64,000 bases of DNA from positions 3,092,501-3,156,500 of the forward strand of contig NZ_CP019630.1 in assembly GCF_001999245.1 (NCBI RefSeq), in the 5' to 3' direction. The notes under the pieces were generated by a model. That model had not been told where the DNA came from. It did not search any database and saw only the letters and a list, made by a program, of their open reading frames with translations. The translations under genes and the position numbers were made by a program. The DNA comes from Roseibium algicola (lineage in GTDB: Bacteria > Pseudomonadota > Alphaproteobacteria > Rhizobiales > Stappiaceae). Below are positions 29,594-42,133 of this stretch, one piece after another. Within the stretch, counting starts at the first letter, position 1. Every line of letters begins with the position of its first letter.

Positions 29594-30838
29594 ATGTCTT
29601 TGAAATCTCTGAAGCTGGGCCTCGCCGCCCTTGCAATGAGCACAAGCCTGGCGTCCGCCGCCGATGTTGAAGTTCTGCACTGGTGGACTTCCGGCGGTGA
29701 AGCTGCTGCTCTGAACGTTCTGAAGCAGGACCTGGAAAGCCAGGGCATCGGCTGGCAGGACATGCCGGTTGCAGGTGGCGGCGGTACCCAGGCCATGACC
29801 GTGCTGCGCGCACGCGTTACCTCCGGCAACCCGCCCACCGCCGTACAGATGCTCGGCTTCGACATCACCGACTGGGCCAAGGAAGGCGCACTTGCCGACC
29901 TGAACATCCTGGCCGGCATGGAAGGCTGGGACGACGTGGTTCCGGAAGCCCTGCAGAAATTCTCCAAGTATGACGGCAAGTGGGTCTCCGCTCCGGTGAA
30001 CGTCCACTCCACCAACTGGGTCTGGGCGAACAAGGCCATCCTCGACGAGCTTGGTATCGAGCCGCCGCAGAACTGGGACGAGTTCGTTGCCGCTCTGGAG
30101 AAGGTCAAGGCATCCGGCAAGACCGCGATCGCGCACGGCGGTCAGGCCTGGCAGGACGCGACCATCTTCGATGCAGTCGTGATGGCGACCGGCGGACCCG
30201 AGTTCTACCAGAAGGCCTTCATTGACCTGGACGAAGAAGCGCTCGGCTCCGACACCATGAAGGAATCGTTCGACCGCATGGCCGTGATCCGCTCCTATGT
30301 GGATGACAACTTCTCCGGCCGTGACTGGAACCTTGCGACCGCCATGGTCATCAATGGCGATGCAGCCTTCCAGATGATGGGTGACTGGGCGAAGGGTGAA
30401 TTCCTGAATGCCGGCAAGAAGCCGGATGAAGACTTCCTCTGCTTCCGCTTCCCGGGCACCCAGGACCAGGTGACCTTCAACGCCGACCAGTTCGCGATGT
30501 TCGCGCAGGGTCCGGAAGTCGGCAAGGAGCAGGCTGCACTTGCAACCGCTATCCTGTCACCGAGCTTCCAGTCCGCGTTCAACGTCGTCAAAGGCTCCGT
30601 TCCGGCTCGGACCGACGTGCCGAACGATGACTTTGACGCCTGCGGCAAGAAGGGCATGGTGGATCTGAAAAAGGCCGCCGACAGCGGCAACCTCTACGGC
30701 TCCATGGCGCATGGTCACGCCAACCCGGCTGCCGTCAAGAACGCCATGTATGACGTGATCACGGCGCATTTCAACGGGGAATACGACAGCGAAACCGCTG
30801 TTGCAGAACTCGTTACCGCCGTTCAGATCAACAAGTAA
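29594..30838 (+). CDS. Sugar ABC transporter substrate-binding protein (CUT1, glucose/mannose type)
   Basis: The 414-aa periplasmic receptor has a signal peptide (cleavage near LASAADV) and the extracellular solute-binding family 1 pattern (VEVLHWWTSGGEAAALNVLKQ, DDVVPEALQKFSKYDGKWVSAPVNVHSTNWVWANK, NGDAAFQMMGDWAKGEF). It resembles GtsA-like glucose/mannose receptors. ATG at 29594 follows GGGAGGAATATCG; longer starts lie in the promoter. It is the first gene of a 12-gene operon, followed by a strong 12-bp hairpin. Confidence 0.92.
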   Translation: MSLKSLKLGLAALAMSTSLASAADVEVLHWWTSGGEAAALNVLKQDLESQGIGWQDMPVAGGGGTQAMTVLRARVTSGNPPTAVQMLGFDITDWAKEGALADLNILAGMEGWDDVVPEALQKFSKYDGKWVSAPVNVHSTNWVWANKAILDELGIEPPQNWDEFVAALEKVKASGKTAIAHGGQAWQDATIFDAVVMATGGPEFYQKAFIDLDEEALGSDTMKESFDRMAVIRSYVDDNFSGRDWNLATAMVINGDAAFQMMGDWAKGEFLNAGKKPDEDFLCFRFPGTQDQVTFNADQFAMFAQGPEVGKEQAALATAILSPSFQSAFNVVKGSVPARTDVPNDDFDACGKKGMVDLKKAADSGNLYGSMAHGHANPAAVKNAMYDVITAHFNGEYDSETAVAELVTAVQINK

Positions 30839-30847
30839 CGACCGCGC

Positions 30848-30875
30848 GGAGAGCGGTGATCCGTCACCGCTCTCC
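30848..30875 (+). promoter_or_regulatory. Intercistronic stem-loop after the binding-protein gene
   Basis: GGAGAGCGGTGA, loop TCCG, then TCACCGCTCTCC make a perfect 12-bp stem 10 bp after the stop, with no T-tract. Such hairpins commonly protect the upstream receptor mRNA and lower downstream expression. Confidence 0.65.
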
Positions 30876-40278: not shown

Positions 40279-41546
40279 CAGATTGTTCGCGTGAGGCCCT
40301 GTTGCGGCGTCTGTTCGAGACGGCCGTTGCAGCGGCCGACCCGATGAAGTGCGTTCCCGCATTCCTGCCGGAAAGGGTTGACGGCCGGACAGTCGTGATC
40401 GGTGCCGGCAAGGCGTCGGCACGCATGGCCGAAGCGGTTGAAGCAGCCTGGGGGGCTTCAGAGGGACTGGTCATCACCCGCGACGGCTACTCCAGGCCTT
40501 GCCGGGGGAGCGAAATTGTCGAGGCATCACATCCGGTGCCGGACGGGCGTGGGCTTCAGGCAACACAGCGCCTTCTCGGTCTGTTGTCTTCGCTTGAAGA
40601 AGCGGATCACGTGATCGCGCTGATTTCAGGCGGGGCGTCGGCGCTGCTGGAGGCACCGGCCGGAGATATTTCGCTGGCTGACCTGCAGGCCTTGAATGAA
40701 GCCCTGCTGGCATCAGGCGCGCCAATCACCGACATGAACACGGTCCGCAAGCATGTCAGCCTGGTCAAGGGCGGCCAGCTTGCAGCGGCAGCCTATCCTG
40801 CCCGGATGACGGCGTTGATCATTTCCGATGTTGCCGGTGACGATCCGGCCTTTATTGCCTCAGGCCCGACGGTTGGCGATCGGACGACGCCAGCGGACGC
40901 GCGCGCGGTTATCGAACGCTTTGGCATGTCTGTGCCGGCTTCTGTTCTCGCTGTGCTGGACAGCGCCACCGGAGTGCTGCCGCCGGAAGATGAAAGAGTG
41001 TCGAGGGTGGAAAACCGCATCATTGCGGCACCATCGCTTTCGCTGGAAGCAGCGGCAAGCGTGGCAGCCGATGAAGGTATGGAAGTCGAAATCCTGGGCG
41101 ACGCCATTGAAGGCGAGGCGCGCGAAGTGGCTGAACAGCAGGCAAGACTCGCGATCGAACGCCAGCAGGCGATGAAACCGGGTGGGCGGCCCGTCCTGCT
41201 TCTGTCCGGCGGTGAATGCACGGTGACGCGGCGCGGCAAGGGCTGTGGTGGTCCGAATGCGGAATTTGCCCTTGCTCTCGCGATCGCTCTCAAGGGGGCA
41301 AACGGTCTTTACGGGATTGCTTGTGACACAGACGGTGTCGACGGGGCGGCGGATGTTGCAGGGGCGGTTGTTGGCCCAAGCACTCTTGAGCGTGCAGAGG
41401 CGCTTGGCCTCGACCCGGTCGCCATGCTCGGCGACAATGACAGCCACAGTTTCTTCGCGGCTCTTGGCGATCAGGTGGTGCCGGGGCCAACCCTCACCAA
41501 CGTCAACGATTTCCGTGCAATTCTCATCGAAAGCCCAATGATATGA
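40275..41546 (+). CDS. Glycerate 2-kinase (GckA/TtuD type, DUF4147)
   Basis: The enzyme phosphorylates D-glycerate to 2-phosphoglycerate, feeding lower glycolysis. The 423-aa protein has the N-terminal DUF4147 fold (VVIGAGKASARMAEAVE, EASHPVPDGRGLQAT, ALISGGASALLEAP, NTVRKHVSLVKGGQLA, IISDVAGDDPAFIASGPT) and the C-terminal MOFRL domain (LLSGGECTVTRRGKGCGGPNAEFALALA, CDTDGVDGAADVAGA). It points to glycerate, or a precursor such as hydroxypyruvate or tartronate semialdehyde, as an end product of the operon's pathway. Confidence 0.92.
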   Translation: MTDCSREALLRRLFETAVAAADPMKCVPAFLPERVDGRTVVIGAGKASARMAEAVEAAWGASEGLVITRDGYSRPCRGSEIVEASHPVPDGRGLQATQRLLGLLSSLEEADHVIALISGGASALLEAPAGDISLADLQALNEALLASGAPITDMNTVRKHVSLVKGGQLAAAAYPARMTALIISDVAGDDPAFIASGPTVGDRTTPADARAVIERFGMSVPASVLAVLDSATGVLPPEDERVSRVENRIIAAPSLSLEAAASVAADEGMEVEILGDAIEGEAREVAEQQARLAIERQQAMKPGGRPVLLLSGGECTVTRRGKGCGGPNAEFALALAIALKGANGLYGIACDTDGVDGAADVAGAVVGPSTLERAEALGLDPVAMLGDNDSHSFFAALGDQVVPGPTLTNVNDFRAILIESPMI

Positions 41547-42133
41547 ATGAGCTGGAGACGCTTCTCCAACGGGCGCGGGCCCTGATTTTCGATTGTGATG
41601 GCACGCTGGTGCAAACACCAACGCTCTATGCCGGTGCCTGGCAGGACGCGTTCAGGGCCGCCGGTCATCATATGGAGCCGGACTGGTACCACGCCCGGGC
41701 GGGAATGTCGGAACATGTGCTGCTTGATGACTACGAAGCCGAGCACGGCGTTACGGTGGATCGCCCACTGGCCGTTCGGGAGATGCGCACGGCAGTATTG
41801 GCCCGGATCGGTGAAGTCGGCGAGATCGAGGTAATAAGCGCCATTGCACGGAGGTTTCACGGCAAGTTGCCGATGGCGGTCGCCTCTGGTGGACCGCAGG
41901 AAGTGGTGCTGGCGTCGTTGAAGGAGACGGGACTGCTGCCGTTGTTCGATACGGTTGTCACGATTGATGACGTTGCCCATGCCAAACCGGCGCCGGATCT
42001 CTTCCTGGAAGCCGCTTCCCGGCTCGGTGTCGCAGCCGCACAATGCCTCGTGTTCGAGGACAGTCATCAGGGGCTTGAGGCAGCGCACAACGCAAGAATG
42101 CCGGTTGTTGATGTGAACCGGCTGATCGGATAA
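41543..42133 (+). CDS. HAD-superfamily phosphatase/phosphomutase-like protein
   Basis: The 196-aa protein has the HAD motifs: motif I FDCDGTLV, motif II in PMAVASGG, motif III Lys in HAKPAPD, and motif IV CLVFEDSHQGLEAA. The helical cap after motif I places it with beta-phosphoglucomutase/phosphoglycolate-phosphatase-like members. It is the last gene of the operon, overlapping the glycerate kinase stop (ATGA), and converges on the ECF gene. Substrate is probably a small sugar phosphate. Confidence 0.88.
   Translation: MNELETLLQRARALIFDCDGTLVQTPTLYAGAWQDAFRAAGHHMEPDWYHARAGMSEHVLLDDYEAEHGVTVDRPLAVREMRTAVLARIGEVGEIEVISAIARRFHGKLPMAVASGGPQEVVLASLKETGLLPLFDTVVTIDDVAHAKPAPDLFLEAASRLGVAAAQCLVFEDSHQGLEAAHNARMPVVDVNRLIG

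Follow-up and report, generated by a model that had tools for sequence, protein, structure and literature searches.

A single catabolic system built around a DUF993 protein lies in a 64,000-nucleotide stretch of the genome of Roseibium algicola (NCBI RefSeq assembly GCF_001999245.1, contig NZ_CP019630.1, positions 3,092,501 to 3,156,500 of the forward strand; hereafter the window, in whose coordinates positions are given). It begins at about 23399 and comprises some 17 neighbouring genes (23399-42133) arranged as two transcription units and a divergent regulator gene, lacI1 (Table 1); its unity is well supported. The genes encode a glucose-type ATP-binding cassette (ABC) importer, two GMC flavin oxidoreductases (GMC1 and GMC2), several dehydrogenases, a CoA-transferase, an enoyl-CoA hydratase, a Dabb-domain protein, DUF993, two LacI-family regulators and, as optional members, a glycerate kinase and a HAD phosphatase. 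We tentatively propose, giving it somewhat less than an even chance, that they form one undescribed pathway in which a glucose-like compound would be imported, oxidized, converted into a CoA thioester and split by Schiff-base carbon-carbon cleavage by DUF993. If this is true, it would provide a function for a family of which a crystal structure has existed since 2012, and a new sugar route linking cytoplasmic flavin oxidases to CoA chemistry. It would also illustrate how one pathway can be hidden behind unconnected automatic annotations (dihydrodipicolinate synthase family, 3-ketoacyl-ACP reductase, GMC oxidoreductase, CoA-transferase). The proposal can be tested through the receptor clade, the paired operators and the small core of dehydrogenase and DUF993.

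Borders and conservation of the system

The original prediction, made from the DNA letters alone, had described a twelve-gene run (29594-42133), and this run was confirmed: all twelve open reading frames are intact, lie on the + strand and belong to the families named, by Pfam and/or NCBIfam (permease 2 was assigned by gene order and blast orthologs, not by the family-library scan). The border drawn around it was wrong, as the genes for a CoA-transferase, a hydratase, an aldehyde dehydrogenase and a Gfo-type dehydrogenase belong to the system too and the CoA half had been missed. The 4-bp overlaps said to join most of the genes exist, but only at four of the 11 junctions (GMC1/SDR, GMC2/Dabb, LacI/glycerate kinase and glycerate kinase/HAD). 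As had also been stated, no glycosidase or sugar-kinase family was found among the locus proteins scanned.

Conservation was followed in the best 80 of 108 candidate loci encoding a relative of DUF993 (71-97% identity; at most 10 kb on each side). Gene order was read with a gene caller of our own and presence was rechecked by tblastn, as it was for a further 60 loci, 41 of them with DUF993. Gene conservation around DUF993 in the 80 loci is far above chance. By tblastn, DUF993 was present in all 80, GMC2 in 78, LacI2 in 77, SDR in 75, GMC1 in 73 and Dabb in 70 (18 of these at just 30-40% identity), together with permease 2 and the ATPase (68 each), permease 1 and the receptor (67 each). The low counts of the upstream genes (aldh 37, ech 13, coaT 8, gfo 4) are largely due to the 10 kb fetch limit. 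Whole-genome searches, made for 50 of the 80 records, turned up a close coaT ortholog (74-99%) in every case; in 47 its distance upstream of DUF993 is 9.0-12.6 kb. For the remaining three (L032, L098 and L100) the coordinates of coaT and DUF993 do not match and the DUF993 contig ends shortly upstream; a contig break is the likely explanation. Furthermore, six loci (L055, L080, L083, L085, L095 and L110) lack the transporter and carry coaT-ech before GMC1, four of them with gfo and aldh as well. This linkage, the transporter-less loci and the LacI-type palindromes described below place the CoA-transferase, the hydratase, aldh, gfo and lacI1 in the same system. A comparable row occurs on a plasmid of Sinorhizobium meliloti Ak57: LacI, gfo, CoA-transferase, enoyl-CoA hydratase (ECH), aldehyde dehydrogenase (ALDH), transporter, GMC1, SDR, GMC2 and glycerate kinase, DUF993 being transcribed divergently from LacI; Dabb and lacI1 are not annotated in this region, whose gene table is incomplete.

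Among 297 sampled genomes of the order, DUF993 occurs in 89 and GMC1 orthologs in 31 (cut at >=55% identity, with one partial match, G210, included and matches of 40-45% excluded as paralogs). DUF993, linked or not, is present in 29 of these 31 (Fisher p 4.5e-15, relatedness ignored). The two genomes with GMC1 and no DUF993 (G188 and G282) belong to the same genus. In a 19.5 kb stretch of G188 (L154), tblastn detected GMC1, GMC2, coaT, ech, Dabb and the transporter, while SDR and DUF993 were not found; these two may therefore be lost jointly, and the remainder can persist without them. The system is also present in Rhizobium, Sinorhizobium and Paracoccus, and the relatives include plant symbionts. 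It is thus not specifically marine, contrary to the link with marine osmolytes that had been drawn.

Operators and regulators

Two classes of LacI-type palindromes accompany the system, one before gfo and the other between lacI1 and the receptor gene (Table 1). Perfect matches to TTGNAACGTTNCAA number three genome-wide, all within this locus; one mismatch adds one further site in the locus and five elsewhere in the genome. Since the reversed pattern, used as a control, gave 19 genome sites (mismatch classes pooled), the similar sites outside the locus are at chance level or less. The scan was extended to 140 loci (2.64 Mb, with the window excluded and some overlapping stretches counted twice). 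Of the 47 first-class sites (TTGGAACGTTCCAA) found there, 39 lie within 300 bp before genes of the system, in 30 loci (GMC1 16, LacI2 9, DUF993 6, coaT 3, GMC2 3, gfo 2). The second class gave 36 sites, 35 of them at the receptor gene (20), lacI1 (14) or gfo (1), in 27 loci, and five control palindromes gave 0, 0, 0, 2 and 0 sites, always away from these genes. Across relatives, one operator class is therefore common to DUF993, GMC1, GMC2, coaT and gfo, and a separate class belongs to the transporter. Two LacI repressors may act through these classes, one at the transporter and one at the enzymes.

Receptor and oxidizing enzymes

By sequence and fold, the receptor belongs to the glucose-binding clade of CUT1 receptors. 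It is 67% identical to Oant_3817 (4r2b, crystallised with glucose), 45% to ppGBP of Pseudomonas putida and 44% to SAR11_0769, with the same fold, and the crystals of its nearest solved relatives contain glucose or galactose. A glucose-like sugar is accordingly the substrate suggested by the receptor sequence. Unlike the importers of those three glucose-type receptors, the one described here is joined to oxidases and CoA enzymes.

The residues that we take to be catalytic are conserved almost without exception: EKP and H181 in gfo (12/12), E329 in coaT (Table 1), the glutamates of ech (30/30), the residues of aldh (44/44) and SDR (90/90), H429 and N472 in GMC1 (92/92), and H463, H464 and N506 (98/98) with N508 (97/98) in GMC2. 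Pfam GMC domains are present in both GMC proteins, which have an FAD motif at the start and, by eye, no signal peptide, so that oxidation is likely cytoplasmic. Of the solved proteins that GMC1 matches over its full length, the best are FAD glucose dehydrogenases, at 114 bits, and fructose dehydrogenase, at 79 bits, whereas the similarity to pyranose oxidases is confined to the C-terminus. In contrast to FAD glucose and fructose dehydrogenases, no small subunit is present in this locus and no export signal is seen by eye. The gfo product is IolG-like, with weak matches to glycoside 3-dehydrogenase models, and falls below the NCBIfam cut-off for every specific family; its copy in S. meliloti is annotated as 1,5-anhydro-D-fructose reductase, a similarity-based label.

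DUF993 and its partners

DUF993 constitutes its own Pfam family (PF06187) and has the fold of a DapA-like TIM barrel, with DapA-type lyases and aldolases as the best of the fold matches listed. Its K229 aligns with K161 of DapA (hhalign) and is conserved in 111 of 111 sequences. An invariant H188 stands at the place of DapA Tyr133, and in the same alignment the GxxGE motif is unrecognisable; both Tyr133 and GxxGE are motifs of the DapA family. Identity to the superfamily of DapA, N-acetylneuraminate lyase and 2-keto-3-deoxygluconate aldolase is 12-17%, and a PF00701 scan of the genome hit eight places but did not pick up DUF993. The aldol-type cleavage that had been predicted for DUF993 thus keeps the fold and the Schiff-base lysine, but not these motifs or a PF00701 match. 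With a known fold in a separate family, DUF993 is a likely cleavage enzyme, carbon-carbon cleavage being its likely chemistry and aldol activity a candidate mode of it. A structure has been solved for SMc04132 of S. meliloti (PDB 4dnh), a DUF993 protein labelled hypothetical. No publication naming DUF993 was found in the literature searched, which leaves out most subscription papers; within that literature the pathway is apparently undescribed, as the original prediction supposed. In an S. meliloti table, SMc04132, SMc04133 and SMc04390-04392 fall in the same module 6, and the last three are named L-sorbose dehydrogenase, SDR and dehydrogenase (PMC12542648). From these names and the numbering, SMc04390-92 would correspond to GMC2, SDR and GMC1. 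Another paper says, citing other work, that smc04396 is dextrin-induced (PMC4960864).

Partners of DUF993 were surveyed in 119 loci (window excluded, some overlapping loci counted twice, family-specific thresholds of our own). SDR, Dabb and GMC1 accompany it in 61, and SDR and GMC1 with no Dabb called in 18. A second type, with Gfo and an AP_endonuc_2 isomerase, was found in 18 loci, none of which has GMC1 or Dabb, and SDR is combined with the isomerase in six (coaT in four, Dabb in one). Altogether, the isomerase occurs in 24 of the DUF993 loci, one with Dabb and none with GMC1. Ten annotated plasmid regions (eight of 147 DUF993 records and two of 55 GMC1 records) give more detail. In Erwinia and Paracoccus pantotrophus, Gfo, the isomerase and a DUF4147 glycerate kinase accompany DUF993, while in Glaciihabitans an unrelated glycerate kinase (PF02595) lies by Gfo-DUF993-isomerase, with a type III CoA-transferase and ECH nearby. 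Sagittula carries ALDH, GMC, CoA-transferase, ECH, Dabb, an acyl-CoA dehydrogenase, SDR, DUF993 and the isomerase; one Paraburkholderia carries ECH, CoA-transferase, SDR, DUF993 and the isomerase, and another (L184) a CoA-transferase and, directly before DUF993, a protein of the shikimate-dehydrogenase family, again with the isomerase. In Arthrobacter, GMC, ALDH and an oxidoreductase precede DUF993. Acyl-CoA dehydrogenases were also noted in L143 and L150, and in L126 by sequence likeness alone. The recurrent pair is DUF993 with a ketone-forming dehydrogenase, drawn from at least three families; a CoA-transferase and a hydratase recur near it, once in an unrelated form.

Several other arrangements were seen. 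In L112-L124 and L145, DUF993, Gfo and the AP_endonuc_2 isomerase are paired with SsuABC-like, TctABC-like or CUT1 importers; such varied, unrelated importers indicate that the family probably serves several substrates. On a Streptomyces plasmid (L188:9974-11164), a DUF993 protein (42%) lies amid a mycofactocin-coupled SDR, an FAD monooxygenase and a type I polyketide synthase, which suggests a biosynthetic use of the family. L167 (2194-13000) and L168 lack DUF993 and combine a glucose-type importer with relatives of GMC1 (55-56%) and GMC2 (46-47%), a HisD-family dehydrogenase and a thiamine pyrophosphate (TPP) enzyme, possibly another undescribed sugar oxidation route; as a substrate clue they were dropped, the family matches of the TPP enzyme being ambiguous. 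A Bradyrhizobium plasmid (L181) was likewise set aside, as it merely has a Gfo and a GMC gene together.

Glycerate kinase and phosphatase

The exit through glycerate that had been predicted is possible, but glycerate kinase is optional (41 of 80 loci by tblastn) and HAD rare (11 of 80), and both were rejected as core parts. The tblastn recheck also revealed one kinase, in L162, that the gene-order reading had missed. In L032 and L033, which are close relatives, HAD follows LacI2 and no kinase was found between them. The kinase is also present in four of the ten plasmid regions (L182, L183, L185 and L186). Since a DUF4147 glycerate kinase is widespread, with matches in 254 of 297 genomes, strains lacking one in the operon could rely on a different copy. 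The host genome itself has three matches; one outside the window (G000:C1:3700882-3701538) makes the kinase of the window an extra copy.

Proposed pathway and alternative explanations

In the pathway proposed, the glucose-type importer would take up a glucose-like hexose or a close analogue. Cytoplasmic GMC1 and the NAD dehydrogenases (gfo and SDR) would convert hydroxyls into ketones, and GMC2 with the aldehyde dehydrogenase would oxidize a primary alcohol or aldehyde to a carboxylate, from which the CoA-transferase would form a thioester. The hydratase would then add or remove water at the beta carbon of the thioester. DUF993, through K229, would form a Schiff base with the ketone made by SDR after the hydratase step and break a carbon-carbon bond; Dabb may be an isomerase. 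One C3 fragment would leave as glycerate, for which some strains would keep a dedicated kinase. A bolder version, in which the route is phosphate-free and a CoA thioester formed from part of a hexose skeleton is split by DUF993 as a new family of Schiff-base aldolases with glycerate as a product, is rather doubtful. If true, a phosphate-free route would be widespread in Alphaproteobacteria, with simpler forms (dehydrogenase, DUF993, isomerase and sometimes glycerate kinase) in Gamma- and Betaproteobacteria and in Actinomycetota.

Known systems share parts of this scheme. The deoxyribonate pathway of Pseudomonas, reportedly the work of Price and co-workers, has in common with it a sugar acid, an SDR, CoA chemistry and an exit through glycerate kinase; no DUF849 protein, the cleavage enzyme of that pathway, turned up among the locus proteins scanned. 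Myo-inositol catabolism shares an IolG-like Gfo dehydrogenase and an aldolase step, but IolD, IolE, IolB and IolC were not found among the proteins scanned, and here a cleavage without prior phosphorylation is proposed.

Several observations count against the proposed pathway. The cleavage step is not obligatory for GMC1, GMC2, coaT, ech and Dabb, as seen in L154. Both CoA-transferase and GMC1 are missing from many DUF993 loci (18 of 119 are of the type with Gfo and isomerase). The absence of GxxGE and Tyr133 might indicate that DUF993 does not act on pyruvate-type substrates or is not an aldolase. The enzyme-class operator was found in just 30 of the 140 loci at one mismatch or fewer, most loci showing none, and the glucose in 4r2b may be incidental. 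Glycerate kinase is missing from 39 of the 80 loci and from 39 of the 41 DUF993 loci of the further 60, so that the support for glycerate as a product is weak.

Part of this evidence could be accommodated by other explanations. The lack of GxxGE would suit a hydroaromatic or carbasugar-like substrate, on which GMC2 and ALDH would make a ring carboxylate for conversion into a CoA ester. DUF993 would then be a Schiff-base dehydratase or ring opener akin to type I dehydroquinase, and the AP_endonuc_2 isomerase of the other forms a second dehydratase. The shikimate-dehydrogenase-family protein of Paraburkholderia L184 fits this idea, as do the suitability of a CoA-transferase for a ring acid and the AP_endonuc_2 proteins that often follow DUF993, one of those scanned weakly matching the dehydroshikimate dehydratase QuiC. 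Yet the receptor is of the glucose/galactose-binding clade, the glycerate kinases adjoining DUF993 would be unexplained, and DapA-type lyases and aldolases lead the fold matches, with no dehydroquinase-type match among those listed for the DUF993 model (which does not exclude such a likeness). We regard this explanation as unlikely. About equally unlikely is a glucose-like deoxy- or anhydro-sugar (such as 1,5-anhydroglucitol or a 2- or 6-deoxyhexose), with CoA steps handling the carbon without a hydroxyl. The glucose-type receptor, the label of the S. meliloti gfo and the acyl-CoA dehydrogenases of the sister loci L143, L150 and L189, enzymes that act on CH-CH bonds, would agree with it; but that label is based on similarity, the gfo of the window is below the cut-off of specific families, and none of the genes of the window locus was recognised as encoding an acyl-CoA dehydrogenase.

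An intact glycoside or glycerate-bearing osmolyte, glucosylglycerate having been the candidate of the original prediction, would be oxidized to a 3-keto form and lose its glycosidic bond by elimination, the glycerate released being phosphorylated. The weak matches of gfo to glycoside 3-dehydrogenases, the kinase where it occurs and the TctA/B/C-type carboxylate importers of some distant DUF993 loci are in line with this. It is nonetheless weakened by the free glucose or galactose in the nearest solved receptors and by the many loci without the kinase, and it leaves the CoA-transferase and the hydratase without a role. The AP_endonuc_2-type lyase of Gfo-based 3-keto-glycoside pathways, which would be the candidate for the elimination, was not seen in the window locus and is rare in this form, and the glycoside hydrolase or phosphorylase of glucosylglycerate catabolism was not found among the locus proteins scanned. 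We regard the glycoside as quite improbable. Two unrelated adjoining pathways (23399-28261 and 29594-42133) are very improbable indeed: two transcription units split by lacI1 and differing operator spellings could be taken that way, but relatives keep both parts together (47/50), coaT-ech directly precedes GMC1 in six loci, and in relatives gfo, coaT, GMC1, GMC2 and DUF993 have a single operator class in common.

Features and surroundings of the locus

Table 1. Genes and operators of the DUF993 system (window positions)
Feature	Position	Strand	Remarks
Two LacI-type palindromes, TTGGAACGTTCCAA class, before gfo	23325-23338, 23359-23372	.	First with one mismatch, second perfect
gfo, Gfo/Idh/MocA dehydrogenase	23399..24397	+	Start inferred from reading frame and GGGAGG-like site
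coaT, single-chain family I CoA-transferase (YdiF/FadX-like)	24400..25974	+	E329 in 24/24; orthologs in 50/50 genomes
ech, enoyl-CoA hydratase family	25971..26744	+	Both glutamates present
aldh, aldehyde dehydrogenase	26741..28261	+	
lacI1, LacI-family regulator	28270..29319	-	Divergent from transporter
Two palindromes, TTGyAACGTTACAA class, between lacI1 and SBP	29381-29394, 29505-29518	.	
SBP, sugar receptor	29594..30838	+	Glucose-binding clade
ABC permease 1	31003..31908	+	
ABC permease 2	31908..32780	+	Start 31908 or 31917
ABC ATPase, UgpC/MalK type	32785..33894	+	
GMC1, flavin oxidoreductase	33898..35382	+	Nearest full-length solved relatives FAD glucose dehydrogenases
SDR dehydrogenase	35379..36137	+	PRK12745 subgroup
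GMC2, flavin oxidoreductase	36163..37755	+	Choline-dehydrogenase-like
Dabb-domain protein	37752..38066	+	
DUF993, DapA-like TIM barrel	38094..39257	+	K229 at Schiff-base position
LacI2, regulator	39265..40278	+	Travels with enzymes
Glycerate kinase (DUF4147/MOFRL)	40275..41546	+	Optional, extra copy
HAD phosphatase	41543..42133	+	Optional

The host genome (6.65 Mb in 3 contigs) has one copy of PF06187. The closest named DUF993 loci are those of R. aggregatum IAM 12614 and Stappia sp. BW2, and many of the top named DUF993 matches are from Roseibium. An origin as foreign DNA was rejected on composition, the GC content of the region (0.60-0.62) lying within the range of the window (0.58-0.64), and no tRNA landmarks were found. 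The gap between the receptor and permease 1 (30839-31002) contains three short inverted repeats, perhaps related to differential expression. Judged by its translations alone, the stretch upstream of the system (13201-22907) contains an inositol-monophosphatase-like gene, the genes of an ABC importer, among them two for receptors in tandem, and a response regulator paired with a sensor kinase.

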